Of a DNA stretch of 64,000 nucleotides, positions 6,301 through 59,760 are shown in pieces. Source of the DNA: Phorcus lineatus (taxonomy: Eukaryota; Mollusca; Gastropoda; Trochida; Trochidae); the NCBI GenBank assembly GCA_921293015.1, contig OV121089.1:46571220-46635219 (forward strand), in the 5' to 3' direction. Position 1 is the first letter of the stretch, and the number at the start of each line of letters is the position of its first letter. The notes beneath the pieces were generated by a model. The model worked only from the letters and a program-made list of their open reading frames with translations. It did no database searches and was not told the DNA's origin. Made by a program: the position numbers and the translations under genes.

Positions 6301-8182
6301 AAGACACCGCCTTTCAGTATGGACTTTGGACTATTTAACTTCCGATGTGCTGATCGAGCTGGATTTTTATGTTTACTAAATAATGTTATGTAAAATAATA
6401 TTATCTTTAGGCAAAAGTTTTGGTGCTTGGGAAATGTTTTATCATTTTTGTGTGTTCTAAAAGCTTGAATGAAAGTCATATGGCACGTGTTGAAGCATAT
6501 CAGTTTCGCGCTTGAAGTTATGAATATTAAACATGTAATATTTGCATACGGGCCGAAGACCTAAAATACACACGTTTTATGTATTTTAGCGCACATGTGC
6601 TGAGATGAAATTTTATTTTTTAGAAATTATGAAATATCCGTGTTTGTTGAATCACTTTTTATCTCCTTGTTAACACTTTTATTTTTTTTTATCAGACGAA
6701 CCTACCAAAGAAAGGCATCGATCAGATCTTAAGCAGTTTTCAATGAAAACATATTTTATCATTGACAAAATGTCATAGTTAGGTCTTGGAAACGGTTTTG
6801 AATAAGCTGAAAAGTTTTTATTTATCACTAGCCACCGAATTGGTTATAAGTCTTCGACTTTGAGTCTCTAAATTATGAATTATCCAGAATTATGACATCA
6901 AAGCAACTTTGTGACGTCATAACAATGTCGTATTAGTGTTTTTAGCCTTGTAAAGCACTGCAGTGTGAGGTCACAACTTTTGATGAAAAAGCATTATTAC
7001 GATTTGATTGTTGCTATATCTATAATGTAGACATCACATACCGCCAAAAACTATCTGTACTTTGTTACTTTAACTTGAAAAAAGTGCAGGGTTATCGGAT
7101 TTATGATCATGATATATATTTACTCAATTATTTATAACATTACAAATACAAATTATTACTTTTCTTTCTTTGCATCGACATCCTGCCCATGACATAACTC
7201 GCCACATAAAGTGAACTTATATATATATTCATATATGCACTATCTAAAAGTCGTTGGAACTGAAGAAATATACCATAACATGACATAACATGACAATGCC
7301 GATATGATAGAATAAAGATTTCAAATGTAGGTTAAAGAACGCGATACAGATATGCAAGACAAGGACTGAAATCCACGATGTATGACTGTTCGAGTTGACA
7401 GTGTGAAGTTGCAGATCTGATGAGGTCCCGTGTCAGGTGTCGACTTACATTGTAATGGATTGCTTGGTCACCTGGGGAACTGACGCTGGCTTCTGATGTC
7501 AGACATATATGCACCACTGTACAGTGTTGTCTAACTTGTGTGTGGCATTTAGAAAACTATGCAAGATCGGTACATTCACATTCTACAACATATCAATGGT
7601 TTTGAAATATGGGGAATCGTTTGCTAAGATTTGACTTGAAAATACATTGCTGCAGAAAAAATGAGTCAAGATAGAAATATTGAAATAAGTTAAAACATTG
7701 TACAAAAAATATCTGATGTGTGATTCTCTTTACAGACTGATGTCATTATCACAGTAATTTCCCGAACTGGAAGAGTTCGTTGAATTATGACATCATACGA
7801 TTCTCACCGATATTGCAACCCGGCGGATAGTTTGAAGTACAAGTTGTTAACCAGATGGGAAAGTCATTTGGATATGTTTTACAAATGGAATTGGATATTT
7901 TAGATAAATTAAATTTTTTAATTTTTAAAGTAAACCTGTATAAACTATCATGACGTGTTGACTCTTGGCTTTTCCTGCTGGACATCCATATACATTGTGA
8001 ATTAGCTTAATGATGTGTCTAGTTTTCAACAATGGTTCCTTATGTCGGCAACAGTCATTTGATTTAACATTGTGGGGTTTTTATAGAATAAAAACATTCC
8101 AACCCAGCTCGTTATGTCTATCTGCGTAAAGCATATGTGACTAGATCCGACAATGGTCAGACGAGGTCTGAACCACTAACGA

Positions 8183-8808
8183 CACTACCGAGAATACGCG
8201 TTTTATTCTAGGTGATACCGAGAATACGCGTTTTATTCTAGGTGATACCGAGAATACGAGTTTTATTTTAGTTGATACGAGTTTTATTCTAGTGATACTG
8301 AGAATACGAGTTTTATTCTAGTGATACTGAGAATACGAGTTTTATTCTAGTGATACCGAGAATACGAGTTTTATTCTAGGTGATACCGAGAATACGAGTT
8401 TTATTCTAGGTGATACCGAGAATACGAGTTTTATTCTAGGTGATACCGAGAATACGAGTTTTATTCTAGGTGATACCGAGAATACGCGTTTTATTCTAGG
8501 TGACACGAGTTTTATTCTAGTGATACTGAGAATACGAGTTATATTCTAGGTGATACGAGTTTTATTCTAGGTGATACCGAGAATACGAGTTTTATTCTAG
8601 GTGATACCGAGAATACGAGTTTTATTCTAGGTGATACGAGTTTTATTCTAGTGATACTGAGAATACGAGTTTTATTCTAGTGATACTGAGAATACGAGTT
8701 TTATTCTAGTGATACTGAGAATACGAGTTTTATTCCAGGTGATACTGAGAATACGAGTTTTATTCTAGGTGATACTGAGAATACGAGTTTTATTCTAGGT
8801 GATACTGA
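8183..8808. repeat. 30-bp minisatellite array
   Basis: About twenty tandem copies of a 30-bp unit built around GAGAATACGAGTTTTATTCT and AGGTGATACC. Unit variants differ by ACGCG/ACGAG, ATACC/ATACT and loss of one G (29 bp). Several shortened units of about 20 bp lack the GAGAATAC part. Variants occur in blocks, which points to local duplication by slippage or unequal exchange. There is no long open frame across it. Confidence 0.9.
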
Positions 8809-9518
8809 GGACAATATCTAATCTGAAACACTGTCCTTACAGGTAAATATTTGGTATGATGATTTATTTTTCACGTATGTTAACACGCTATTGTGAGTAG
8901 TAACTTGCTTTATACAAATACAACAATGCTTGTGAAAAAAGGGAAAACGTACTGATAGGGCTTCTAACTTCTCATCGAAGGCATACTGGATAGTCTCAAT
9001 TGATTTCAGAAGGAATTTGCCACCATAACGTGGATCCCTACTTTTCTCTCTTAAAAGCAATATTTGCATGAGGAATCGTGACCATATCGAACGCTTCCCA
9101 TGTAAAACAAATATCAATTTGGAAGGACACATGTCAATATTTGAATTACAAGTCGTGACCATATCCAACCTCGTTGTACCTAAACAATTGTATTGTATCA
9201 GAAAATTTAGCCATGTCCGCGCTCCCAAACCATCTAAAAAAGGAATTAAAATACCAACGGTCTGAGTGTTTCAGAGACCTTGTTGGCCTAGTGCAGCTGT
9301 CTCGCACGTCCGTGTCAACAAGTGCGTGACCACGACACGGTCAATGATTTCACAACCAGCCTAATTGGATGAAGTGTTCTGATCGATATTGTACCGAGCC
9401 GTTTGTTGTATGAACACGATCATCAGATCAGGCGTAACAGTTTAAACTTAACCGTAGTCGATCTTGAACTGTTACCAGGTGGTCATGGCACAAATAGACC
9501 ACGAGTGCCATCCCTTAA

Positions 9519-9700
9519 AGGGGCACAATGTATGTTGTTGGAGTCAGATAAGTCAAACTTCAGAAATGGTGTGATTTCATCTAGAAGTAGTGGTTGTTTC
9601 AGAAAATCATAATCCTAATGCTTATCAGTTCACTATAGTTACAAACACGGGTTAGTGTCGTGAGTTGTGATCGAAAACTGGACAGTGACGTGCGCCAATG
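9519..9700. mobile_element. TTAA-flanked MITE, family 2, partial or diverged copy
   Basis: It starts after TTAA (9515-9518) and shares with the element at 35123-35466 the words TTGGAGTCA and CAAACTT near the left end. It also shares an identical TGATCGAAAACTGGACAGTG further in (from about 9669). The right end was not located, so the end given is only the limit of clear similarity. Confidence 0.45.
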
Positions 9701-10978
9701 ATTCAAACGAAATTTCGGAAACTTATTTACAGCAGACGCAAAGACAAACATAGGTTCATAGCACTAAGTAGGTCATTTAACTAATATAAACGTTAATTGG
9801 ACACATAATTTCGAATTCTTAGCATTTAGCGTTTTCAGATTATCATTGAAAACAAGAAAATATCTTAATTTTGGTATTTTAGAGATAAAGATGTAACTTT
9901 AGGGAGGCGATTTTAACTTAACTCAGGTCATATGGTATTTTGTCTCTTACTAAAGCCACTTTGAAAACCATGAAACCTACTCTTAGTCACTTTAAACATT
10001 GCACTAAGGCTACCTTAGTAGTTTAAGGTTACTGTAGTGTTTGTGCTACGTACGGGACTTGAACTGGTTGATACAAACTTGTTATGTAATAATCCTCTTC
10101 ACGATAGTATTTTAGGCAACAATAATTACTCTTGATGTTTAACAGTTTGCAGCTTATTAATGATACTCACGAGTAGAAGATACGATGCCGAAAACGTTGT
10201 TTATACATTGCAGCTGAAAATGACAAAAACCAAAAGCTGTTCGCACGTAAATCCAGTTGTACTTCGGGCAGCTATTAAAATAATAATTTAGATTTTCAAG
10301 GTGGATAATTATATGTTGGAAAAATTATATTTTGTATCTGGTGATGACTTATCAGCCTCTCCTAAGATGAATGTTATCGTTACACTGATGTAGCATCGTG
10401 ACTTACGGTCAGCTGTTTTGCTAGGAGACAGGCCGAAGTAAAGTTTGATTATTTCTAGCAGACATTTCACTTCAAGACAGATTATCAACGTTATCAACAA
10501 GTATTAACGTTCTTGAGAATTTTATAACAATTCAAGTGAATTATACTTAAAGTTCGAATTGCTTAGTCCGTGCCAAAGCATGTTGTAATATTTTTATGTT
10601 TAATTCAAGATGTCATTTGCGGAGTTGCACTACGCGTAATAAACTACCCACCGTTGATTATGACGCAAAGCCCTCAGATTGGATATATGTCACTTTTGTC
10701 TTCCACTTATCTCTACAATGTTAACATGGTTGTCAATCAAACAATCTAAAAGAATGTAAACATGAGTAATTCGTAGGTAATAAGTAATTTTCATCTCCGT
10801 CATCAAAATTAACTAGCTTTACCGTCAAATATTGGCGACAAATTGATTAGTTGAACTATGTTTTTCTCAAGGGATTTATATATATATATTTCGATAGTCA
10901 ATTTCTCTTCTAACCTACTCGGACTAAGCGATGTTATATGTTTCTCTTAATAACTTTTTTCTTTGTGAAGACATTTAA

Positions 10979-13469: not shown

Positions 13470-16029
13470 CATCGTCTCTCGTTTTATCAACAAGTAAGTG
13501 TTGTGTACGATTTTCTTGAGAAATGATTTGCGAAGCAGAACAGAATCTCCTCCCAATGTGGCTCCGATATGAAGCACATAAACACTCGTTGATATAAGCA
13601 AACATTCCTTTCGCAGACTAAAGGTATTTTCGCCTAACTTTTACTACCTGGTGTAAATATCATTGGATAGATAAGCATTGAAACAACTTCAAAATTATTT
13701 ATTTCAACTTGTCGATCGTGATATAGAATATAAAAGAACACAATATTACAAGGTCATTGTGCATATTTCCCCACGTTGGATTCACCACTGCTGTGGATAC
13801 GATTTACTTGTAATATATTTACCAAGAATGCCGCATGTCAACATTACAAGCTGAGAACTAAATAAATCTGTTCATTTATAAATGAAAGATCTTTTAAGTA
13901 ACTTTGTATGGTACATGCGTGTGATACAACGAGTCCCTGTAGGCAATATAGTAATAGTACTTACACGATAAAGTGTAGGAAATGGCATTGGTTTTAGTCT
14001 TCTTAGATATAACACGTATATGTTCATTGAAATGAGTTGTGTGAATGCTGGAGAGTGCATTTTAGCATGTTAATAATTTGCGCTGAAAGGGTACCTTTCA
14101 AAGATGAAGCATTTATCACACCAAGGTGGATGAGATATCTTACAATATCTTTTTGCTACTTGATGATAAGGGAACGGATAACCCGAACCGATACCTGGCA
14201 GCTGAGTGCCCTAGACTGACACTCAGTCACTCAACACTAGACTATTTCAGACGAAGCACTTAATTCAGGTCTAGGACAAACCCAGCCTGACAACAACGAC
14301 ATTGACAAAATCCATCGTGATAAAAGTAGCGTTGAAATAAACTACCAAGTACGAAGCCTAAGGATGAACCTGCTTATCCACTATAGTCAACGTTAAAACT
14401 CTACTTCAATTGCTTCGTTTCATGACTAAGTGCGACGTGTATGTTTAAGAAGATTCATATCATGCTTTGGTTACATATTAATGTCTGTTTTATAATTCAG
14501 TACATGTATTTTGCTCAAAGAAATGAACAAAAGCTATATGAAATAAATCGCTTTTGTGCTATCAAACAATACTCATGATCCCGTGTCTTGTTGCTGTTCT
14601 CGTCAAAAATGTTATATCGATTTGGTGATCGAAGTTATATAATTATTGTCAATCATTAAACGATAAAAATATTCTAAAGTTTTATGGGGAAATACTGATA
14701 GATAAAACAAGTTGATCGAATGGTCTCTTAGAATACATTTATTTCGAGAATTTGGAGCCAAACTACGCCTAAAAAGATCCTGTATTCACATTCTTGGCGG
14801 ACTACGATATTGAGATACAATACAATTGAGACGGCAACTCAATGAATTATTTCATGATTAAGCTATATCAAGCTATGATATTCCTTACAGAATCCACATA
14901 CTCTGCGGACCAAATGTATACGAAGTGCATGTGGATCCCAGTTGATATGTACACAGGAATGTTCAGATGAGAGTCCGACCCACATGGTACATATCGTCGA
15001 CTCAGCACGTGGGTAAATGTCAAATAGTCTTCAGGTTGGAGCTTGAAGCGCCGACAGACAGACAGACAGCCAGACAGTACTCGTCAGGGAAATAACATAA
15101 GGTGTTTATGCATAGCTTAATGTCTCTTCAGTAACAGAAATAGACTTCATGGTTGCCATTTGGTCCAAAAATGATTGAGCCTGCAGAATTTGCATCAGTA
15201 ATACTATTTCCGGCCATATCCTTGTTAGAATATTAACAAGTTAATAAAACAGAATGGAAAATGATTAATGCCACAGGATAGGCGGATGATTTAACCCTTT
15301 GATTAAGAGCCAGGATTGGTCAAAGGGTTAGTGAAGGTATCCGGAGATAAACGATTACAATATATGATCTGGCGATCCTTGTTATCCTGATTGTGATTGA
15401 CATTCAAGCCGTCTTTCTGTAGAGTGGCATGTCATAAGAGCCGAATGTCACACAGTCTTTGGCATGTTTATCCTTCCTTAAATCATCCAGATATCCCAGG
15501 AAGGTTCAGATGGTTGAAATGGTTTTAATGGAGTACACCCTGAAGAGAAGGTCAAGAGCAAATTAGATCGTTATCTAGAGTCATACTCAAATGTCTAATG
15601 ACAGCATATGCATCCATATGGCTTGATTTGACGACATTTTATGATATCATGATTCTATGTATCATACAAAATCTTACTTTTCATTCATTCAAGGAATAAC
15701 TGCATCAATATTACTGTCGGGAAACTAGCATTTCATTGAAGTAATTATTATCATGAACAAGCATGGAGATATCACCAGGGTTGAACATAGCATTGTTAAA
15801 TATGAACTTGATGACGTGTAATGTTCTGAAATTTATAATGCAGGTCATTGTGTCAATCTACTGTCAAAACGATACCTTGAGGGGATATCGTTTGATATCA
15901 AACAAGCGACATTTGATAATTATTTTCAAATCTACTTTCACGTTTAGCATCTTTGGACATTAAGTGTCTTGGCATCACAGACACAATAACAGCACTTCTA
16001 AATACTTCTATTAACTGATTTTTCTGATA

Positions 16030-16726
16030 CCTACGGAAGCACCCTAGTGCCACAGTCAAAAATTTTTTATCTCCTAATTAGGAGATACTATCACCTAATT
16101 AGGAGATATTAACGCCTAATTAGTAGATAAGTAACCCCTAATTAGGACTTAATTAACACCTAATTAGGAGATAACTAAGTCCTACTTAGGATATAGCTAT
16201 TTCCTAATTAGGATCTAATTATCGCCTAATTAGGAGATATATCACCTAATTAGTTGATACTATCACCTAATTAGGAGAAAGTAACTCCTAAATAGCAGAT
16301 AGTAACTCCTAATTAGGTGATAATTAAGTCCTAATTAGGACTTAGTTATCACCTAATTAGGAGATATATAAGTCCTACCTAGGACATAGCTATTTCCTAA
16401 TTAGTTGATACTTTCTCGTAATTAGGTGATAATTAAGTCCTAATTAGGAGATACTAACTCCTAATTAGGTGATAATTATCTCCCAATTAGATGATAACTT
16501 ACTCCTAATTAGGTGATAGTATGTCTTAATTAGGACTTAATATCTCCTAATTAGGAGTTAGTATGTCCTAATTAGGACTTAATATCTTCTAATTAGGAGA
16601 TAGTTTCACCTAATTAGGTGATAGTTATGTCCTAATTAGGCGATGATTAAGTCCTAATTAGGTTATGGTATATCCTAATTAGGAGATAAAAAATTTTTGA
16701 CTGTGGCACTAGGATGCTTCCGTAGA
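16030..16726. mobile_element. TIR element filled with CCTAATTAGG palindromes
   Basis: A 697-bp element. Its ends (16030-16082 and 16674-16726) are inverted repeats 53 bp long that match at 51 positions by my alignment. Flanking TA dinucleotides (16028-16029 and 16727-16728) fit a Tc1/mariner-type TA target duplication. Between and including the inner ends of the arms lie about 29 copies of a 10-bp palindrome, 19 of them exactly CCTAATTAGG, at a mean spacing near 21.5 bp. Linkers are mostly GATA, ACTTA or TAACT words. There is no coding capacity. It sits about 100 bp upstream of an FABP exon, inside an intron. The superfamily is inferred only from TSD and TIR. Confidence 0.8.
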
Positions 16727-16823
16727 TACCTAAAAGTACTTTGGGGCTCTCAATAATTTATCAAATACCATATATACTATTGGCAAAGAAGACCAAATCA
16801 AAACTTGCTTTTCCTGCTTTCAG

Positions 16824-17976
16824 GAGTTTCCGCCGAGAAGATTGACTTGGCTCAGAAAGCCCTCTCTGCTGGATCCAAGCTGATCCAAGACCTTTCCAAC
16901 AACGGATCTTCTTGGACCCTCAAGACCATCACAAACCAGGGTGAAAAGGAAGTGACCTTTAACCTTGGAGAGGAGTTTTCCACAGCCACGCTGGACGGTC
17001 GACCGGTCAAGGTCACGGTGACTGAAGACGGTGGCAATCTTGTTGAAATCCAGAAAGGCGATGGTTTCGAGACCAAGAATGTCAGAAGTGTGGCGGGGGA
17101 TGTTATGACGATGGTAAATATTTAAAAAAAAAAAAGTATTCCACTCGTTTTCTAAAATAATTCCACAAAAGAAAGAGGTTCACAATAATCTCTTTTTCAC
17201 AAACCGTGGAAGCAAGACATTTCAAGTTAATATGATAATGAATTATTGCAGTCTGGGTCGAAATCGTAGTCGAGTGAAAGGTCAGAATTAATGGCTTTTC
17301 GCAACTGTACCACCCAACTTCCACCAGAACTAGACGAATCGTTTAACTGCCACCGTAATGCCACGCCATTACCGTTAAATACATTTAACTGAGGATGAAT
17401 AAACTTCTGGTTAAAAAGAGATATTCAAACGAAGAGCCACAGGAACGGTGCTGTTGATATTGTAACGAATACCAGACCTCTCTCTCTCTGTGGTATTTTC
17501 ACGTAACTCAAAATAATAGATATTAAGAAGGTTTTAAATGGTAAAATGTATAACTGAGACATTCCAATTCAAATGTGCCTACCAGTCAGCTCAGAATGGA
17601 GAGAACGTATAATTTAAGATATGTTTTTCTTCGTGGTTCAAATTTAGCCAAATTGATATCTTACCAAAGTGATACCTCATAATCTGAGTCTTGTAACACG
17701 TAAAAATTGTGCCAAAATAACCATTAAAGAGTGGCCATTATATTTCATCGACAAATGCATAGAATATCTTAATAAATAAGCAATAACATGTTCTCAAAAT
17801 TTACAAGTACTAGTAGTAACAACGCTTAATGGGCACTATAAAAACATAAATCCATGTAGCTTATAACGGCAATCCTTGTTTTAAATTCACTACATTTCCT
17901 ATGGTATTAAATTCTTTATTTTCAGACGATGACCGGAAATGGTGTGACATGTACCCGGCAATACAAGAAGACATGA
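16824..17976 (+). CDS. fatty-acid-binding protein (FABP/iLBP family), last two exons
   Basis: Intracellular lipid-binding beta-barrel protein that carries fatty acids or retinoid-like ligands in the cytosol. Exon A spans 16824-17113, after acceptor TTTCAG and before donor GTAAAT. Exon B spans 17926-17976, after acceptor TTTTCAG and ending in TGA. Exon A opens with two bases of a split Gly codon followed by Val, the usual phase-1 first intron of this family. It contains FNLGEEFS, LDGRPVKV, TEDGGNLVEIQ and ETKNVRSV, close to FABP strands D-I. Exon B encodes TMTGNGVTCTRQYKKT, the typical C-terminal strand with the conserved Arg-x-Tyr ligand contact. The visible part is about 112 residues of an expected 132-140. 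The first exon of about 25 residues was not found. Vertebrate genes have an intron inside exon A that is absent here. Confidence 0.88.
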
Positions 17977-20435: not shown

Positions 20436-20590
20436 GTTAAAGTGACACAGAGTATGTTTCATAATTTTTGTATGTGGCTTGAATAGAGTCAAAATACCAT
20501 TTGTCCTGAGGTAAGTTCAAATCGCCTTTCTAAAGTTTCATTTTTAACTCTAAACTGTCAAATTACGATATGTTCTTGTTATCAATGAAA
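20436..20590. repeat. dispersed repeat, copy 1 (copy 2 at 63238-63410)
   Basis: It starts TTAAAGTGACACAGAGTATG and also shares AAATCGCCTTTCTAAAGTTT and a TTCTTGTT-AT-rich tail with 63238-63410. Spacing between shared blocks is conserved. It is non-coding and directly abuts the SINE region. Confidence 0.7.
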
Positions 20591-23049
20591 ATAAAAAAAA
20601 GAATCATATAAAAGTTAAGAAGTCAAAATTCTGCTTCCCATTTACACGTTTATATGTTATATAACTTACTTAACCCTTTCAGCTCCTTTTGTCTTGATAT
20701 CTGCTGTAAATAAGATTCCAAAATAACGTTTCAATCAATGACGCACGCCATTGTCCGTTTTTCGAACATAAATTACAACTTTAACCTGTTTGTCACTATG
20801 GTGAACTCACAAGCGCTAAGATTCTTATTTTCAGAAACAGCCACTATTTCTCTATTGAATAACACCATTTATAAAGTTTGACATATTTGACTCCAACAAC
20901 AAGATAAAAAGGAAAATAGAACAATGGCACATTCCATACGGTTGGTAAATTACATCTCACTATCAAACGATCTTGGGTTCCGCAGCTCCTAAGTGATAAC
21001 TTGCTGGGACATCCCATGCGTAAACATGTACCTTTTACTTTTCACATGTACACGACCATGTTAACATTTCAACAAATAAATCTGTTGTGGTTGGTATCCC
21101 TGAACTTAAGGACCAGTCAGTGTAAGCCTCCTCTACATCCCTTGTGAGACACCAAGGTTCATCATGTCTTCCTCGTGATTTGGTGCTGATCTAGTCCAGC
21201 ATATAACTAGACGTCTATACGAATTTATCTAGATGAACTAGTGCAGACCACTCCTGCAGAAGCTCTTCAAATTGGTTTTACTCACAAGTTCATATTTAGT
21301 TAAGGATGTCATAAGCACAAAGAAACCACATTGGTGCCATCCAAGTTATGGAATGGGTAATCAGTGAATGGGACTGTGGATCAGAAGCCAGCCATGATAG
21401 GAGCAACGGTCAATGCAGGAGCAAGAATGTTTAATTATCAAACTATTTTTTGAAGAGAAAAGACGAACACAAATATGCACCGATCACAGTTTAATTTGAA
21501 ATCACAAGAAGCACACAGTGAAGCGGACTACACAAAGAGAATATAATGTATGATGAGCACTTTTGTGGGAGACATATTCTTCGTCTCGGATAGAAATCTC
21601 GTAAAAGGTTGCCATGTATAAAAACTGGACACATATTGGATATGGATGTAGTTTCACAAGAAGGGGTCCCTTGTCAAATATAAAAACATCAACTTTATGC
21701 TCATGCGTTGGATTTCAGGACTCGGCTTTGATTGACATTTGTTTTGGTTGATTATTACGAGAAATAGCAACATTGATTCAACCATTAAGGTTAGAACAAA
21801 ATAAATAGAAATGGTTACATCTGGGGTAAGTGACCTTTAAAGTCTTAAATGCCTGTCTGACAACTAAAACTAAAATAAATCCAAGCCAATCTTTAATTTA
21901 AGGCGAGAGTGGAGGCAACACGACCATACCAATTTTTCTTCATTAAGGAAGACTGTAAACTTACCACAGTGTCTGGACAGTCAGATAGTGTCAGTATGTG
22001 ATCAATGATATATTGTCCAGAAAAACTTAGGGACATCAGATTGCAAGACACCTTAACTCAACACATACAGGATATATACAGCTTAACGTTGTGCAGTCAG
22101 GTTGGTAGTCTTAATACCTGATAAATGAAAAGAATATAAATAATTAACTTTCTCATTATTATGTCAATAAAATATATCTGCCTGCAGATTTTAGCCTCTG
22201 AAATATTTTAATAAAATGTCAATGCTTCGTAGGACCTAAATAATTGAATGACATGTAAGGCTGCACAGGAGAAGCAAATTGTGTTTTCAAGATTATACGA
22301 TCTTTCAAATATTCAACATAGCAAGGTTATTTACTGTTGAGTATGTTGAGAAAACAATCAATGTTGAACACAACTTCAAGCTTATTTTCCACTTGTGGAA
22401 TGTTTTATATTATGATAAATTATAATAAATTAAGTGTTTTGGATAAAACTCTCTGCACTATACAAGCCTCAAAAACTACCTTCAAACCAAGAGATTAAGC
22501 CCAATATTGATAGGTATAAAGTTTCAGAGACAATCAGTGACTTACGTCTCAGTATATATCACACATAATCTACAGAAGGTTAAATTACATGAGGGAGAGA
22601 TGCAGTTAACACGTTTTCCAAGTCATTGATTTAGTGCTGTTCAGTTGATCCAACAATTGAGAAAAGTATGAAAACCTTTAAATTTTTTTACATTGCAAAC
22701 AAACACATATGCGGCAAACATTGCAAAACTGAATATACAGATAAACTTGATAGAGATATAAATCAAATGAATCATCTAATTAATCTCAATCAAAAAGCAT
22801 TTGATTTTCAAACTCATTGACATTATCACATTTTGATTATTCGTCATTTTAGATCAAATCTATTGGCATGGAATGAAACAAAGACAAACAGTTATACCAA
22901 TCATTGAATCTACAAAGACTATTTTATACTGTTGTAAATTCTTCAGATTCGGAACCCAATAACATGGACTTGAGAAAACAGAGTTTGTTACAAAGAAGGG
23001 ATTGTGTGAGCTGGTTCAGTCCCAGACCCTGGGTTTCAGTACCACCATA

Positions 23050-41746: not shown

Positions 41747-41834
41747 TCTACTACTACTACCACTACTACTACTACTACTACCACCACCACCACCACCACC
41801 ACCACCACCACTACTACTCCTACCACTACTACTC

Positions 41835-41884
<50 letters not shown>

Positions 41885-42269
41885 GCTACCACTACTACTA
41901 CTGCTACTACTACTCCTACCACTACTACTCCTACCACTACTACTACTACTACTACTACTGCTACTCCTACCACTACTACAACAACTTCTACTACTACTAC
42001 TCCTACCACTACTACTACTACTCCTACCACTACTACTCCTACCACTACTACTACTACTACTACTACTCCTACCACTACTACTACTACTCCTACCACTACT
42101 ACTCCTACCACTACTACTACTGCTACTCCTACTCCTACCACTACTACTACTACTCCTACCACTACTACTCCTACCACTACTACTACTACTACTGCTACTC
42201 CTACAACTACTACAACAACTTCTACTACTACTACTCCTACCACTACTACTACTCCTACCACTACTACTC

Positions 42270-42313
<44 letters not shown>

Positions 42314-42392
42314 GCTACTCCTACCACTACTACAACAACTTCTACTACTACTACTCCTACCACTACTACTACTACTCCTACCACTACTACTC

Positions 42393-42424
<32 letters not shown>

Positions 42425-42497
42425 CCTACCACTACTACAACAACTTCTACTACTACTACTCCTACCACTACTACTACTACTCCTACCACTACTACTC

Positions 42498-42548
<51 letters not shown>

Positions 42549-42941
42549 CTACCACTACTACTACTACTACTACTGCTACTGCTACAACTACTACAACAAC
42601 TTCTACTACTACTACTCCTACCACTACTACTACTACTACTCCTACCACTACTACTACTACTACTACTCCTACCACTACTACTCCTACCACTACTACTACT
42701 ACCACTACTACTCCTACCACTACTACTACTACTACTACTCCTACCACTACTACTCCTACCACTACTACTACTACTCCTACCACTACTACTGCTACTCCTA
42801 CCACTACTACAACAACTTCTACTACTACTACTACTCCTACCACTACTACAACAACTACTACTCCTACCACTACTCCTACTACTACTACTACTACTACTAC
42901 TACCACTACCACTACTCCTACCACTACTACTACTGCTACTC

Positions 42942-42980
<39 letters not shown>

Positions 42981-43081
42981 CTACCACTACTACAACAACT
43001 ACTACTCCTACCACTACTCCTACTACCACTACTACTGCTGCTACTATTACTACTGCTGCTGCTACTACTACTATTACTGCT
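41747..43081. repeat. compound (ACT/ACC/CCT)n trinucleotide array
   Basis: About 1.3 kb made almost only of ACT, ACC, CCT and ACA triplets. The common phrase is ACTCCTACCACTACT, and a higher-order marker ACAACAACTTCTACT recurs irregularly. Because few stop codons can arise, three frames stay open for 470-540 codons (Thr/Pro-rich, Tyr/His-rich and, on minus, Val/Gly-rich). None has non-repeat coding sequence that looks like a protein, so no gene is called. Confidence 0.95.
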
Positions 43082-43111
43082 GCTACAACTATTTCACTTT
43101 GAATTGTGTCT

Positions 43112-43180
43112 GTACTCCTACAACTACTACTTCTACTACTACTTCTACAACAACTACTACTACTACTGCTGCTACTACTA

Positions 43181-43242
<62 letters not shown>

Positions 43243-46419: not shown

Positions 46420-46441
46420 CGATATCTCCTAGGAGATATCG
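46420..46441. repeat. perfect 22-bp palindrome centred on CCTAGG
   Basis: It reads CGATATCTCCT followed by its exact complement. A second half-copy, CTAGGAGATATCGTTTT, follows immediately. No function can be assigned. Confidence 0.85.
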
Positions 46442-46683
46442 TTTCTAGGAGATATCGTTTTGACAGTAGATTTTAAACAATGCCCTATTACAGTCAAGTT
46501 CTTGACATCACAATTGTTTTACATCATCAAGTAATGACATCACAATGCTATGATGTCATAAACATGATGACATCACAATGCTGTGACATCACTCCACTGA
46601 GAGTCTAAGAGTAGTGCAGTGTTCAGATAATCACATTTTTCACGGAATCGAAATGAAAAATGATTTTGGATGATAAATAGAAT

Positions 46684-46807
46684 CTCACCCTCGTGTCTTC
46701 TGATATCAAATATAACAACACTCGTTGATAAAAGTAAAATATTGTAAAATTTTGTAACTTTTATCAACTCGTGTTGATATATTTGATATCAGAAGACACT
46801 TGGGTGA
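46684..46807. repeat. long imperfect palindrome (about 50-bp arms)
   Basis: The left arm starts TCACCC and carries TGTCTTCTGATATCAAATAT and GTTGATAAAAGT. The right arm repeats all of these as the reverse complement and ends GGGTGA. The loop is about 20 bp of AT-rich DNA. It is probably a foldback element. Confidence 0.75.
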
Positions 46808-47999
46808 TATTCTCTATATATAACTACTGTGAAACATGACAAAGTGTATTTACACAATGTATATACATGTATACATTTATATCAGTGTACAAAAAGACTC
46901 ATAGTAAAATTGTCAAAAAGTTAGCCTTATCATAAGGATTTTTAAAAAATTCAGAATGAGCAAATATCTTTGCAAAATGGGTACAAAATAAATAAATAAA
47001 TGTTATATTCTTCTTCATGGTATTGTTAAAAAACGGATTGATAATATACATATTTCTACTTTGAAACATGAACAAATATATTTACACAAGGGATAAAAAA
47101 ATATATGCATATATATCAACAGTTCTCTTTTTGAGGGAAATTGTTCAAAGAAGGTTGAACATTCAAACTGACATGTTTCTACTTTGCAACATTACAAAAT
47201 CTATTTTAACAATGATTGCTAAACATATATTTCAACTGTAAGAGTAAGATTTTTTAAGGGAAATTGTTCAAGAAAGGATATAATTTTTAACCAAACATAT
47301 CTCTTCTTTAAAACATGACAAGATCACTTACAAAGTGGATGCAACAAAAAGTCATATATTGAAAAGTAAACAGCAATCATTTAAGTGTAATTATTCAAAG
47401 AAAGGTTGAATAAATAAGCATATATATCTTTTCTGAAATATGCCAAAAGGTGTTTTAAAATAGATGCAAAATGAATATAAAGTCAATGTAAAAAGGACTC
47501 TAGTTGTATTGACAGTAGAGATATTAATCATATTCACCAACATGCCTTTGTTAAAGATGATCACATCTCTTTGCAAATTTGTTAAAAATAAATGTATATA
47601 TTTCAGCAATCATTACAGGGAATTATTCAAAGGATTGATTATTTACATTAACATATCTCTACTTGGAAACATACAACATCAGCGTCAAATAATATTATTA
47701 TCTATATTGTCAAATTGAGTAAATTATACATGTTACAAAATCTCTTTACAACATAAATACATATAAAAACATGTTTCATTAATTACCAATTATCGGTTGA
47801 TTGAGTAAGCACATCTAAATATTTATACTTTGAAAAATAACAAAATGTATTTACACATTTATACAAAACAACAAGGAAAAGACCATCGCTTCAAACATAA
47901 CGGAATGACTGTGTGTTGTCGTCACACATGTACATTCATATTTTCTTATGAACATTAAAACGAAAGCTATCCCTGTAGTGAGTCCAAATTCAACTCATT

Positions 48000-48893: not shown

Positions 48894-49533
48894 TATAAGA
48901 TCGTTGTCTATATCAATCCTAATACATGAAACATATTATTCTACAAAAACAGGATCAGATAATAATGCATTCATTTGTAGTTGAAATTTCTAATGTTCAT
49001 TCTCTAGTGCACAACGTAATTTCATATTAATGATTTACTAAATCAAAATTCTTAAATAAACAATTTACAATAAACAAACAAAATATGTTACATTCGCAGA
49101 CGAAGATTAATAATCATGCCCAGGTACAATTAACCTATCGCCACCTGTGAATCAAATATATTTTCCGACCAATCACAGAGCGTCGTTTATTCTACCCGCT
49201 AAGCGCATCACTGCAGACGCCATTTTGTCCGACAAACAACAAAACGTGATTTACTTCCTTGTTTGATTTCCGCTGCATACGCAGTTACAATATGTAATTC
49301 AAACACAAAAAGTGTTCGAGACTTTTATTCAATACTGTCTACATACCACGGTTAACATTCTAAGGCTGGAATTACACAACGACCGTTTTTTTACGCATGC
49401 GTTGCCAGGTGCGTTTTTTGCAATACACAAGGTGCGTTTCATCTGCGATTGACGTTATGCGTTTAAGTTTACTCTTACACTTCCCTATACATCACATAAT
49501 TCTTCTGTTCACAAGGTGTTATATTTTCAGTGT

Positions 49534-51480
49534 ATGATGGATTCAGCTCTTATGCTTAACTTAGTAGAAGAGGAGGAAGAAGAGGAGATGGAGGAAGAGC
49601 TTCTAATCTCTTTGGTAATTTCAGTACATGAAGAAGAGAATAAAGGACGGAGGTGGTGGGTTCATCCACTTCACCAACAAAGATTACTTGAAGGACGCTG
49701 TAATCGACTGAAACAAGAGTTAGAAGAAGATGATGAAAAGTTCCAAAATTATTTTAGGCTATCTCAAGAGCAATTCTATGAATTGCTGTCTAAACTTGAA
49801 CACACATTGTCGAAACAGCAAACAAGGATGCGACCACCTATTTCTGCAAGGGAGAGATTTGCTGTAACATAAAGGTAAATAAACAAGATAACAAGATTAA
49901 GCATGTTAATGAACTCTTTAATTTCAAGACTGATACATTAAATGTATTCATTGAAGCGAAACCCATCTTTAAGGTTTAGGGTTTTAGAACCCTTTGATAT
50001 CAGATTTACAAATAAAACGTAATAAAATAAGGAAATATTCATCTTCCATGTACTAAGGAGACACTTTTGAAAATATCGAGAAAATACAAACATAATCGTT
50101 CTCTTAATTACTTTACATATCCCACATACAAGCGGAACTGAAGTGACTCCCCTGGGGAATGTACTCCTGGGGTTGTTGACGGGTATCAAATTGAGTTTCG
50201 TGAAATAGCTGAGCAATTTTGATTTTCACCAAACTTTTTGAAGCATCCGGAAGCAACTTCAAATCTTTTGAATATGACATCATGAACATCTCATCACTGT
50301 GACGCTCCTTGTTTAGTGAGGTCAAAGACTCCTGATGACTTTGTCTCTGACTTCCTGTCGTGCACGGTTCCTCTCCCTCGTCTCTTCAAGAACGCCAAGA
50401 AGTCCAGAGCTATTAACTTCGGACTTCCGTGGCCTCTTCTTTGGTGGTACGGAGGCGGGGGAAATAGATCGTGACGTCGAAGGTGTAGGGCTTACTTGGC
50501 GTGAGGTTTCCCTGAACAAAAGGAAAACATAATGAGATTCACAAATAAACATATCCAAACGACTGTTTTCATTTTCAGATTTCTAGCTACAGGAGAGACT
50601 TTTGCATCTCTGGCCTACAGCTACAGAATAGCCGCCTGTACCATTGGAGGGATTGTCAAAGAGGTGTGCTGTGTGATTGGGGAATATCTACAACCAGAAG
50701 TAATGAAGGTTCCTGAAACACCCGATGATTGAAAACATATTGCAGGGGATTTTGAAGACACCTGGCAATTTCCTAACTGCTGTGGAGCAATTGATGGAAA
50801 ACACATTGTGATGAGAGCACCAGCTAAGTCAGGATCTGTTTACTTTAATTACAAAGGGATTTTTTTCTGTCGTGCTCATGGCTGTAGTCGATGCTGGCTA
50901 CAAGTTTGTGATGATTGATGTGGGGTCATGTGGGATGAATAATGATTCAGGGGTGTCTAGGAACTCAAGGTTTGGTCAAGCTTTGAGAACAGGTGAATTG
51001 TCCCTTCCGCCTGACAGAATTTTGCCAAGAGCAGAGGAGAATGGCCCTCTACCGTATGTCTTCATCGTTGATGAAGGTTTGCCGCTTTGAAGAATCTCCT
51101 CAGACCCTATGGAGGACGTGGGCGAAATGAAGATGAGAAAATATTCAACTATCGGCTAAGCAGGGCAAGAAGAATAGTCGAGAGCAGCTTTGGCATTCTC
51201 GCAGCAAGATGGAGAGTGTTTCATACAAAGATAGCAGTGGAACCCCAGACGGCCAAACGCATTGTAAAAGCAGCGTGCGTACTACAAATTTCCTGCAGGC
51301 CTGTACAAGACCCAGTGCCGCACAGCAGAGGCGTTCTGATGGTCCAGCCTCCCTAGGCACAGGAGGCGAGTGAGCAAGGAGGCAGAGAATGTGAGAGATG
51401 CATTTAAACAGTACTTTAACAATCAGGGTCAAGTTCCATGGCAAACTGACCTTGTAAGGAGAGGACTGTTTTCAGAGTAA
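49534..51480 (+). pseudogene. Harbinger DDE transposase (HARBI1/DDE_Tnp_4 type), inactivated
   Basis: Cut-and-paste transposase gene of the surrounding element. Exon 1 is 49534-49874 (acidic run, then YFRLSQEQFYELLSKL and RPPISARERFAVT). Exon 2 is 50579-51480, after acceptor TTTTCAG, beginning RFLATGETFASLAYSYRI. Catalytic motifs are visible: first Asp in [10 protein letters not shown], second Asp in the VFIVDEG block, and Glu in RARRIVESSFGILAARWRVF. It ends GQVPWQTDLVRRGLFSE. Damage: a TAA at the end of exon 1 where the family has Leu, a TGA in place of Trp (about 50730), and frameshifts near 50860 (T run), 51080 and 51280-51360. The intron contains the last exon of the antisense gene. Confidence 0.85.
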
Positions 51481-52253
51481 GATAAGATCTTACCTGGTGC
51501 TTCCACCAGAACGGTAGTCAGTGGATTCGACAGTGGACTCCTCAAGGGCCTCGTCATTATCCAGATCGTTGTCACTTGGCATGTTACTTTCTGTGCTGCA
51601 AAAAAATAAGAATTATTTCTTTCCCACATTTTCAATTGAATGATAATGTTCACTGTTCCAAACATTATTGAAAATTATGTTTGCTTTAAGCATTAAAAAA
51701 CATGTTTCTCCAGAATTTGACTTTATATTGTCTATGGTAAAATGAAACATTCCATCGTATCATTAATGACACACTAACATCAAGTATCTAGACTTCGTAT
51801 ATAATCTTACAAGTCATCATCCATGTAGTCGTCACGGAAGCCCAACAATTTGTACCATGCCCATTTGGGCTCCTTCACATCATCCCTCACCGAACCACTC
51901 TTTCTGCTGCTTTCTCATAGTTCCCGTCGTTTTCTGATATATGTATCCTTGATACTCCGACGGCGAGTCCTGGCTGCAATGTGTGATTGTATATATAGAT
52001 TACTAATGGAACAAAGATTTATAATTGAACAAAATAATGAGGAATTTCCATTCAGGAAGTGCCATTGATATACAACTTTACCTTCTGAGACACTGACGCC
52101 AAGTGTCTTTGCTATTGATGTCCAAATATTGTTCACAACATCTACATCTCTATAATCCTTTGATCTTTTGTCGAATAAAGTGCTGTTTCCCTCGACAAGT
52201 GAAATCAATCTTTCGGTATCGAGTATTGTACGCTGGCTTCTCTTTCCTGTCAT
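50113..52253 (-). pseudogene. Harbinger MADF/BESS (Myb/SANT-like) DNA-binding protein, inactivated
   Basis: Second protein of PIF/Harbinger elements, thought to help the transposase reach the nucleus and bind the ends. Exons: 52082-52253 (MADF part with LISLVEGNSTLFDKRSKDY and VNNIWTSIAKTLGV), 51811-51973 (RKSGSVRDDVKEPKWAWYKLLGF), 51494-51595 (acidic EES/TVES linker) and 50113-50511 (PPKKRPRK basic stretch, then a BESS-like DEMFMMSYSKDLKLLP with a C-terminal tail). All splice sites are GT-AG and the phases agree. Damage: one in-frame TGA near 51915 in exon 2 and a one-base frameshift near 50325 in exon 4. The 3' exon lies wholly inside the transposase intron. Confidence 0.8.
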
Positions 52254-52660
52254 GATTCTTTTAATGAAACTGAAATTAATCACATATATGCCGTAACATA
52301 GTGTTTAATATGAAAAAGTAGATGCAGACACACACCAAATTGATATCTCAACATACATATAATCAATTCTACATGTGTAATCAAGTATTTTTTAGAACTA
52401 TTATAGAAGACATCCTTACCTGACGGTCCACGTGGTTGGGATATACCTCATTTGAGTGATGTCACCAGGGGATTCCTCATGCGAATTCATTTGCGTTGCG
52501 TAAAAAATAGCAGGCCTTCCTATCTCATTCGCATCGGATCGCAACGCATGCTGAATTCGCATGTAGTGTATTGCACACATTGAAAATGTACTGCTCGCGT
52601 TTTTTTTGACGCAATGCAAGACGCAACGCATAGAAAGTCGGTCGTAGTGTAAATTCAGCC

Positions 52661-55261: not shown

Positions 55262-56014
55262 TCAGTGGAGTCATACCATATTTGTTTTTGACAAACGTAG
55301 CAATGTCTCCACAACAAGCTCATTGTAAAACAGTGTCAATGTCATGAAAAAGATTTGACATGTTTTGACAATGTTACAATCATGATTAATTACAACAATA
55401 TCTGCACCTTGTCCAAGGAGAAGATCAAAAACCTCCCTGCAACCAAACAAAGCTGCAAACATCAACGGAGTTATACCATATTTGTTTCTTGCATCAATGT
55501 TACATTCCTTTTCACGAACAAGATATTGCACAAACTCAGAATTTTCCTTATAACAGGCTCGATGTAAAACAGTGACATTGCCATTAATATCTTGTACCGA
55601 AATATCTGCACTTTGAACACGGAGAATCAAAACCCTTTTTGCAGCGAAACAAAGCTAAAATCATCAAAGGATTTCTACGATATTTGTTTCTAGCATCAAT
55701 GTTACATCCGGACGGACAAGATATTGAACAAACTCAGCATTGTCTTTACCACAAGCTCGATGTAAAACAGTTTCCTTGTCATTATCTAGTACCAAAATCA
55801 CCACAAGAAAACATGGGGTTTTCCTCAGGCAGTATACAGCATTAAACCCTAAGAGTTTAATGTAATTTCATGTGGAGGAAACCCTAGGCGTTTATTGACA
55901 TTTCACCAACAGTAAACAGGGAATATCCTCAGCAGAGGAAATGCCATGTTACTTAATTAAACTCGAGGAACTCCAGGAAAATTTTGTGTTTGTGTTTTCA
56001 CAACAGGCTCAGGG
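55262..56014 (-). pseudogene. decayed ankyrin-repeat tail of the NTPase-ankyrin gene
   Basis: Ankyrin repeat units continue on the minus strand beyond the stop of the main gene but are broken. A readable stretch at about 55420-55630 (VLHRACYKENSEFVQYLVRE, GITPLMFAALFGCREVFDLL) is joined by frameshifts to weaker pieces on both sides. At about 55801-56010 the array is interrupted by unrelated DNA containing small inverted repeats around AGGAAA/TTTCCT words. It could be non-coding relic or, less likely, a 3' exon restored by splicing. Confidence 0.6.
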
Positions 56015-59000
56015 TCAAACAGTGTCATTGTCATTATCTAGTACTGAAATATCTGCACCTTGTCCAATGAGAACATCAAAAACCTCCCTGAAGCCAAACA
56101 AAGCTGAATTCATCAACGGAGTTCTACCATATTTATTTCTAGCATCAATGTCACATTTAGTATTATGAACAAGATGTTCAACAAACTCAGCATTGTCTTT
56201 ACAACAGGCTAGATGGAAAACAGTGTGACTGTCATGATCAAGTACTGAAATATCTGCACCTTGTCCAAGGAGAACATCAAAAACCTTCCTGCAGCCAAAC
56301 AAAGCTGAATTCATCAACGGAGTTCTACCATATTTGTTTCTAGCATCAATGTTACATTCCTTTTCACGAACAAGATACTGCACAAATTCGGAATTTTCCT
56401 TATAACAGGCTAGATGTAAAACAGTGTCATTGTCATGATCAAGTGCTGAAATATCTGCACCTTGACCAAGGAGAAGATCAAAAACCTTCCTGCAGCAAAA
56501 CTGAGCTGCAACCATCAATGGTGTTCTTCCACTTTTGTTACTAACATCAATAAGAAATCCCTTTTCAAGAAGATATTGAACAAACTCAGCACTGTCTTTA
56601 CCACAGGCTTGATGTAAAACAGTGTCACTATTATGATCAAGTACTGAAATATCTGCACCTTGTCCAAGGAGAAGATCAAAAACCTTCCTGCAACCAAACT
56701 GAGCAGAAATCATCGACGGAGTTCTACCATATTTGTCTCTAGCATCAATGTTACATCCTTTTTCACGAACAAGATATTGAACAAACTCAGCATTGTCTTT
56801 GTGACAGGCTCCATTTAAAACACTTTCATTATCATGATCAAGTGCTGAAATATCTGCACCTTGACCAAGGAGAAGATCAAAAACCTTCCTGCAACCAAAC
56901 TGAGCAGAAATCATCAACGGAGTTCTACCATATTTGTCTCCAGCATCAATGTTACATCCTTTTTCACGAACAAGATATTGAACAAACTCAGCATTGTCTT
57001 TGTGACAGGCTCCATGTAAAACACTTTCATTATCATGATCAAGTGCTGAAATATCTGCACCTTGACCAAGGAGAAGATCAAAAACCTTCCTGCAACCAAA
57101 CTTAGCAGAAATCATCAACGGAGTTCTACCATATTTGTCTCTAGCATCAATGTTACATCCTTTTTCACGAACAAGATATTGAACAAACTCAGCATTGTCT
57201 TTGTGACAGACTCCATGTAAAACACTTTCATTATCATAATCAAGTGCTGAAATATCTGCACCTTGACCAAGGAGAAGATCAAAAACCTTCCTGCAGCCAA
57301 ACTGAGCTGCAACCATCAATGGTGTTCTTCCACTTTTGTTACTAACATCAATAAGAAATCCCTTTTCAAGAAGATATTGAACAAACTCAGCACTGTCTTT
57401 ACCACAGGCTTGATGTAAAACAGTGTCACTATTATGATCAAGTACTGAAATATCTGAACCTTGTCCAAGGAGAAGATCAAAAACCTTCCTGCAACCAAAC
57501 TGAGCAGAAATCATCGACGGAGTTCTACCATATTTGTCTCTAGCATCAATGTTACATCCTTTTTCACGAACAAGATATTGAACAAACTCAGCATTGTCTT
57601 TGTGACAGGCTCCATTTAAAACACTTTCATTATCATGATCAAGTGCTGAAATATCTGCACCTTGACCAAGGAGAAGATCAAAAACCTTCCTGCAACCAAA
57701 CTGAGCAGAAATCATCAACGGAGTTCTACCATATTTGTCTCCAGCATCAATGTTACATCCTTTTTCACGAACAAGATATTGAACAAACTCAGCATTGTCT
57801 TTGTGACAGGCTCCATGTAAAACACTTTCATTATCATGATCAAGTGCTGAAATATCTGCACCTTGACCAAGGAGAAGATCAAAAACCTTCCTGCAACCAA
57901 ACTTAGCTGCAACCATCAATGGTGTTCTTCCACTTTTGTTACTAACATCAATAAGAAATCCCTTTTCAAGAAGATATTGAACAAACTCAGCACTGTCTTT
58001 ACCACAGGCTTGATGTAAAACAGTGTCACTATTATGATCAAGTACTGAAATATCTGCACCTTGTCCAAGGAGAAGATCAAAAACCTTCCTGCAACCAAAC
58101 TGAGCAGAAATCATCGACGGAGTTCTACCATATTTGTCTCTAGCATCAATGTTACATCCTTTTTCACGAACAAGATATTGAACAAACTCAGCATTGTCTT
58201 TGTGACAGGCTCCATTTAAAACACTTTCATTATCATGATCAAGTGCTGAAATATCTGCACCTTGACCAAGGAGAAGATCAAAAACCTTCCTGCAACCAAA
58301 CTGAGCAGAAATCATCAACGGAGTTCTACCATATTTGTCTCCAGCATCAATGTTACATCCTTTTTCACGAACAAGATATTGAACAAACTCAGCATTGTCT
58401 TTGTGACAGGCTCCATGTAAAACACTTTCATTATCATGATCAAGTGCTGAAATATCTGCACCTTGACCAAGGAGAAGATCAAAAACCTTCCTGCAACCAA
58501 ACTTAGCAGAAATCATCAACGGAGTTCTACCATATTTGTCTCTAGCATCAATGTTACATCCTTTTTCACGAACAAGATATTGAACAAACTCAGCATTGTC
58601 TTTGTGACATGCTCCATGTAAAACACTTTCATTATCATAATCAAGTGCTGAAATATCTGCACCTTGACCAAGGAGAAGATCAAAAACCTTCCTGCAGCCA
58701 AACTGAGCTGCAACCATCAATGGTGTTCTTCCACTTTTGTTACTAGCATCAATAAGAAATACCTTTTCAAGAAGATATTGAACAAACTCAGCATTGTCTT
58801 TACCACAGGCTTGATGTAAAACAGTGTCACTATTATGATCAAGTACTGAAATATCTGAACCTTGTCCAAGGAGAAGATCAAAAACCTTCCTGCAACCAAA
58901 CTGAGCAGAAATCATCAACGGAGTTCTACCATATTTGTCTCTAGCATCAATGTTACATCCTTTTTCACAAACAAGATATTGAACAAACTCAGCATTGTCT

Positions 59001-59760
59001 TTGTGACAGGCTCCATGTAAAACACTTTCATTATCATGATCAAGTGCTGAAATATCTGAACCTTGTCCAAGCAAAAGATCAAAAACCTTCCTGCAACCAA
59101 ATCCAGCTGCAGTCATCAATGGAGTTCTACCATATTTGTCCGTGGCATCAATATTACATTCCTTGTCACAAACAAGAAATTGAACAAACTCAGCATTGTC
59201 TTTGTAACAGGCTCGATGTAAAACACTTTTATTATCATGATCAATTACTGAAATATCTGAACCTTGTCCAAGGAGAAGATCAAAAACCTTCCTGCAACCA
59301 AACACAGCTGAAATCATCAGTGGAGTTCTACCATATTTGTCTCTAGCATCAATGTTACATCCCTTTTCACGAACAAGATATTGAACAAACTCAGCATTGT
59401 CTTTACAACAGGCCTGATGTAAAACACTTTCATTATCATGATCAAGTGCTGAAATATCTGAACCTTGTCCAAGCAGAAGATCAAAAACCTTCCTGCAACC
59501 AAATCCAGCTGCAGTCATCAATGGAGTTCTTCCATATTTGTCCGTGGCATCAATATTACATTCCTTTTCACAAACAATATAATGAACAAATTCAGCATTG
59601 TCTTTATAACAGGCTCGATGTAAAACAGTTTCATTGTCATTATCAATTACTGTTATATCTGCACCTTGACCTATGAGGAAATCGAAAACATTTCTGCAAC
59701 CATATGTAGATACGTTCATAAGTGGAGTTCTTCCATTTGCGTCTTTGGTGTGAATTTCGA
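56015..59760 (-). repeat. ankyrin higher-order repeat array (about 201-bp units)
   Basis: About 18.5 units of 66-67 residues, each made of two ankyrin repeats (GRTPLM..A.FGCRKVFDLLLGQGAD and ..D.DNESVLH.AC.KDNAEFVQYL). Between 56515 and 58716 the units form three higher-order blocks of 801, 600 and 801 bp. Each block ends with a 198-bp unit encoding LLEKGFLIDVSNKS in place of VREKGCNIDARDKY. Copies within this part are almost identical. Confidence 0.9.

Follow-up and report, generated by a model that had tools for sequence, protein, structure and literature searches.

A 693-bp element in the genome of the gastropod Phorcus lineatus, with ends at positions 16032 and 16724 of the 64,000-nucleotide stretch analysed here (the window), consists of two nearly identical inverted arms with TA tips and a continuous array of 29 short palindromes between them, and is flanked on both sides by the same six bases (Table 1). 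No second copy of the arms lies in the window. The most likely interpretation is a hairpin transposon that is non-autonomous, has ends resembling those of IS3EU and carries an array derived from the apex. From these features we infer its mobility, the type of its transposase and the origin of its array. Our preferred reading, held with moderate confidence, is a non-autonomous cut-and-paste foldback MITE that has TA..TA tips, duplicates 6 bp of target and is probably mobilised in the IS3EU/GingerRoot manner, its array being derived from the hairpin apex.

Table 1. Features of the palindromic-array element and the adjacent exon (positions in the window)
Feature	Position	Strand	Remarks
Putative left target-site duplication GATACC	16026..16031	.	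Perfect direct repeat abutting the element end
Left terminal inverted repeat, 41 bp, tip TACGGAAGC	16032..16072	+	1 mismatch/41 vs right arm
Array of 29 palindromic units, consensus TATCTCCTAATTAGGAGATA, mean period 21.46 bp	16068..16688	.	
Right terminal inverted repeat, 41 bp, ending CTTCCGTA	16684..16724	-	1 mismatch/41 vs left arm
Putative right target-site duplication GATACC	16725..16730	.	Perfect direct repeat
Fatty-acid-binding-protein-like exon stretch	16826..17104	+	Pfam PF00061, E 1.6e-4

Alignment of the inverted arms gives one mismatch over 41 bp, one over 52 bp and two over 53 bp. This reproduces the 53-bp arms with two mismatches of the initial annotation, a length that counts the outermost array unit as part of the arm; on the right, the arm and the last unit share a 5-bp overlap (AGATA). 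In an ungapped search of the whole window for inverted pairs (12-base exact seed, starts less than 2 kb apart, at most one mismatch), the longest pair is that of this element (46 bp), and the next elsewhere measures 29 bp. The single mismatch in 41 bp would be consistent with a recent insertion, and arm conversion may be another source of the similarity. The element is short, carries terminal inverted repeats and overlaps none of the 13 open reading frames of at least 110 aa in the window, as is typical of MITEs.

The element ends are better set at 16032 and 16724 than elsewhere because a perfect 6-bp direct repeat, GATACC, then adjoins both sides, occupying the six bases directly before and directly after the element. 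The tips so defined, TACGGAAG and CTTCCGTA, both carry TA, and if the GATACC repeat is taken as the duplication, the TA is the element's own tip. The transposon-like character proposed initially is thus backed by the near-identical arms and the flanking direct repeat, and the TA duplication proposed at the flanks is probably wrong, the 6-bp repeat giving the better fit. At the fixed spacing of the element a 6-bp match was found in 168 of 63,180 control placements in the window, and a match of 6-12 bp, with five symmetric boundary choices allowed, in 522 of 63,180. The element might instead be a Tc1/mariner-type MITE with a TA duplication, its array being an internal minisatellite, as a TA adjoins both CGGAAG tips. 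TA-duplicating MITEs are common, and this weighs against the preferred reading, as does the fact that a single 6-bp repeat at a single insertion is one observation. Under the Tc1/mariner reading, however, chance would have to supply the GATACC repeat outside the TA, with a probability of about 0.3 to 0.8%, and a genuine 6-bp repeat would explain the TA at both ends as tips; we consider this reading quite unlikely. The presence of just one copy in the window could also suggest an immobile palindromic minisatellite that arose locally and lies by chance between an inverted repeat. This is highly improbable, given that the arms are longer and better matched than the other short-span pairs in the window at no more than one mismatch, and that a direct repeat abuts the element.

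The array comprises 29 palindromic cores from 16073 to 16683 (19 exact copies of CCTAATTAGG, seven with one mismatch and three with two), spaced at 20 bp (n = 1), 21 bp (n = 13) or 22 bp (n = 14), with a mean of 21.46 bp. The core count thus bears out the approximately 29 sites, 19 of them exact, and the spacing of about 21.5 bp given in the initial annotation. When up to one mismatch is allowed, CCTAATTAGG has 26 matches in the window, all 26 within the array, against 1.37 expected by chance, and none of 100 shuffles reached this number. The correspondence with two helical turns, also suggested in the initial annotation, holds between neighbouring cores (the mean step is 16 degrees off two turns at 10.5 bp per turn) but the phase is lost along the array, with a resultant of 0.28 at 10.5 bp per turn; a resultant of 0.90 requires a pitch of 10.73, a value that is simply half the fitted spacing.

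The consensus derived from the 29 units (TATCTCCTAATTAGGAGATA, 20 bases) is a perfect palindrome. The inner arm ends are TATCT and AGATA, and joining arm, one core and arm gives a perfect palindrome of 92 bp, the centre of which is exactly the unit consensus. Since the consensus equals the inner arm ends joined around a core, the array has plausibly grown from the apex. The idea that arms and array grew together is retained to this extent; the arm itself is not built of units. Similarly, the palindromes at the arm ends are those of units 1 and 29, which directly adjoin the arms; the 41-bp arm itself is without CCTAATTAGG. As single-stranded DNA the element folds end to end, with a free energy of -213.7 kcal/mol compared with a shuffle mean of -61.7 kcal/mol, and RNA folding gives -377.7 compared with -159.2, none of 20 shuffles equalling the element in either case. 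If transcribed through, the element RNA would form a long hairpin.

In the proposed mechanism, the ancestor would have been a perfect hairpin of about 92 bp, consisting of an arm, a single CCTAATTAGG apex and an arm. Tandem units would then have arisen at the palindromic apex by replication slippage or template switching, possibly followed, with less certainty, by the duplication of blocks of about nine units. The 41-bp arms would probably be recognised by a DDE transposase of the IS3EU/GingerRoot type that mobilises the element in trans, and the array would travel with the arms as passive cargo. The units are nearly without orientation (mean match of 15.91/20 direct and 15.83/20 inverted), as expected if the founding unit was the apex. 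Unit 1 matches the consensus at 20/20 and unit 29 at 19/20; the end units are not uniquely consensus-like, however, as five others (units 2, 8, 14, 23 and 25) also reach 19/20, and this counts against the preferred reading. On the same side, the mirror-equivalent phase at both arm-array junctions is, by our estimate, no rarer a coincidence than about 1 in 21. The strongest of lags 1-20 between units is nine (permutation p 0.024), and base by base the best lag is 301, with 193 (nine units) third; block duplication of nine units is weakly supported.

The order of the units bears on whether the tandem repeats were once present in both of two long inverted arms, as in foldback elements of the Tetris kind, with the middle domain since lost. 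In favour of such an origin, the element resembles an inverted repeat throughout and folds along its full length, and FB and TU elements are parallels. Unit k is nevertheless no more similar to inverted unit 30-k than in shuffled orders (centred on the middle unit, p 0.18 for all 14 pairs and 0.42 when the outermost pair is left out), and other centres do no better than chance, the best being unit 14 (p 0.28). Without mirror order, the tandem repeats do not form the two inverted arms around a middle domain that characterise foldback elements of the Tetris kind. This speaks against two inverted arms having each received a copy of an older array, and such an origin is very unlikely.

Variation is distributed unevenly within the units. 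The core departs from the consensus at 13 of 290 positions, the outer TA at 6 of 116, and the triplets next to the core on each side at 56 of 174. Between unit pairs nine apart the core differs at 18 of 200 positions, the flank at 37 of 120 and the TA at 6 of 80 (core vs flank, Fisher p 1e-6, the units being non-independent). A core far less variable than the adjacent bases is not simply predicted for passive cargo and weighs against the preferred reading; it may reflect selective constraint on a symmetric binding site, or else the spread of founder variants through duplication. In the former case the palindromes would be kept as putative sites for a two-fold symmetric protein (transposase or host factor), and the array would be a platform and not cargo. 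The low variation of the core relative to the three bases beside it agrees with such a role, as does the persistence of the core/flank gap between units nine apart. In addition, the core fits CC(A/T)6GG, which we take to be the CArG box of serum response factor, and this motif occurs 19 times in the array and once in the rest of the window. On the other hand, duplication may have spread flank differences that date back to the founders, in which case the counts compared do not represent independent events, and helical phase is lost across the array. Nor are flank changes mirrored across the core beyond chance, as would be expected from quasi-palindrome correction (not supported, p 0.145), and the likeness of flanks across the spacer is, if anything, below chance (lower-tail p 0.054). 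A binding platform is rather unlikely overall. Its more specific form, in which about 29 putative symmetric sites are under selection while the spacers drift, and a dimeric CArG- or homeodomain-type ligand or a transposase aids mobility or alters the expression of the neighbouring gene, is quite unlikely. If the cores were under selection, the element would represent a mobile array of symmetric binding sites beside a gene. The changes also differ in kind: A-T or C-G swaps make up 45 of the 56 flank changes, compared with 3 of the 13 core changes and 4 of the 6 outer-TA changes (flank vs core, Fisher p 1.7e-4, for units of common ancestry).

The features of the preferred reading, a hairpin MITE with an apex-derived array, can be compared with those of named families. 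TA..TA tips and usually 6-bp target-site duplications are given as features of IS3EU and GingerRoot in the available text of PMC10045372. The present element shares the TA..TA termini (TACGGAAG...CTTCCGTA, 16032-16724) and the 6-bp duplication (GATACC, at one insertion only). It differs in its palindromic array, which does not figure in the accessible part of those descriptions, and in being without a visible transposase (PMC10045372). The likeness to IS3EU and GingerRoot appears good, falling short of membership since neither a transposase nor a second copy was seen, and it covers tips and duplication length. Among molluscan repeats, the available part of PMC8268682 tabulates CgiSat35 and CgiSat47, two satellite DNAs of Crassostrea gigas, with DNA/IS3EU.

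Tandem repeats within small mobile elements have been described previously. The pearl-family MITEs of bivalves are likewise small, non-autonomous and molluscan, with internal tandem repeats, and one of them, DTC84 of Donax trunculus, has a conserved palindrome near the repeat junction; the available account of this family gives up to six satellite-like monomers, whereas the present array has 29 units of about 21 bp, each based on a palindrome (PMC5139131). The Xmix MITE of Xenopus, with its Xstir repeats, also carries tandem repeats within a MITE and has a published stem-loop growth model; the Xstir repeat is listed, in the excerpt available, as TIR-derived, whereas the present unit takes only the innermost arm bases around one core. 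Stem-loop models for tandem growth within MITEs had thus already been proposed, according to the summary in PMC8268682. The Drosophila foldback elements Tetris and Galileo similarly combine inverted arms and tandem repeats in one element. As far as the accessible descriptions go, they differ in having repeats of about 220 bp and 140 bp in both arms, where the present element has one continuous, unmirrored array, and in duplications of 8-10 bp (Tetris) and 7 bp (Galileo), compared with the 6-bp GATACC. For Galileo, additional binding sites for the transposase reportedly lie within the internal repeats, according to a citation in the Tetris paper, as available, which is in line with the binding-platform reading.

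The statement in the initial annotation that ordinary MITEs do not look like this needs to be narrowed accordingly: MITEs and foldback elements with internal repeats are published, but arrays of short palindromes are not described in the accessible parts of those accounts. No element with a whole body of short palindromes was found in a literature search with thin coverage of subscription journals. Judged by titles and the starts of abstracts, the CCTAATTAGG string returned no transposon context, and the only match to descriptions of palindromic arrays was unrelated. What appears new, relative to the literature covered, is the array of short palindromes fitting a hairpin tip; tandem-repeat MITEs being already known, we regard the element as an unusual variant. 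If the apex model is true, the element would provide a clean example of the tip of a hairpin transposon becoming a tandem array, which has been proposed as the initial step by which a MITE gives rise to satellite DNA. The model predicts that array length varies between copies and is therefore directly testable.

Searches for such copies covered the window and collections of viral and prokaryote contigs. No second copy of the arm is present in the window, where the other matches are 15 bp or shorter, and a 92-bp hairpin probe reached a best score of 26 in the rest of the window, compared with a mean top score of 27.2 on 30 random windows; this lack of a significant relative weighs against the preferred reading. 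Exact scans for a 25-base arm pattern in viral contigs, and for a two-unit array pattern in viral and prokaryote genome contigs, gave no match, results with little bearing on an animal genome. A 19-base arm pattern gave one match in an exact scan of prokaryote genome contigs, in an Akkermansia MAG; it was rejected, as identity stops at 19 bases and about 1.9 chance matches are expected. At 46420-46441 the window contains a 22-bp perfect palindrome (CGATATCTCCTAGGAGATATCG) resembling an array unit without AATT. Next to the apex of this palindrome is an exact tandem duplication of 16 bp (region 46420-46470). The flanking sequence CTACTGTCAAAACGATATC is found again, with one mismatch, about 155 bp from the element at 15858-15876. 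As a relative from an early stage of amplification this palindrome was discounted, since it falls outside the four best stretches found with the hairpin probe and the homology is not significant. At 8186-8809 a 30-bp unit is repeated in tandem about 22 times; this array was considered as an element of the same kind and likewise rejected, no inverted pair of at least 14 bp being present in 7900-9100.

The element lies about 100 bp upstream of the fatty-acid-binding-protein-like exon, and from the position of this exon start it is probably intronic. The PF00061 match scores 22.3 bits, just under the 23-bit cut-off, and the exon has a CTTTCAG acceptor, judged by eye; an upstream exon was not found. 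Other repeats in the window include a dispersed repeat of about 465 bp at 9533-9995 and 20437-20901 (opposite orientations, 76% identical), a CTA-rich triplet array of about 1.45 kb at 41748-43197, and about 18.5 copies of a 201-bp repeat at 56003-59702, overlapped by a minus-strand open frame of 1826 aa that looks ankyrin-like by eye. A separate hairpin at 46673-46819, recovered when more mismatches are tolerated between the arms, has 63-nt arms that are 87% complementary, with 21 nt between them, and is perhaps a small foldback element. Finally, the region 49516-52283 contains a frame resembling a Harbinger transposase by eye, with no Pfam family matched, together with a minus-strand MADF domain (PF10545, E 1.8e-8), possibly representing a Harbinger-type element.
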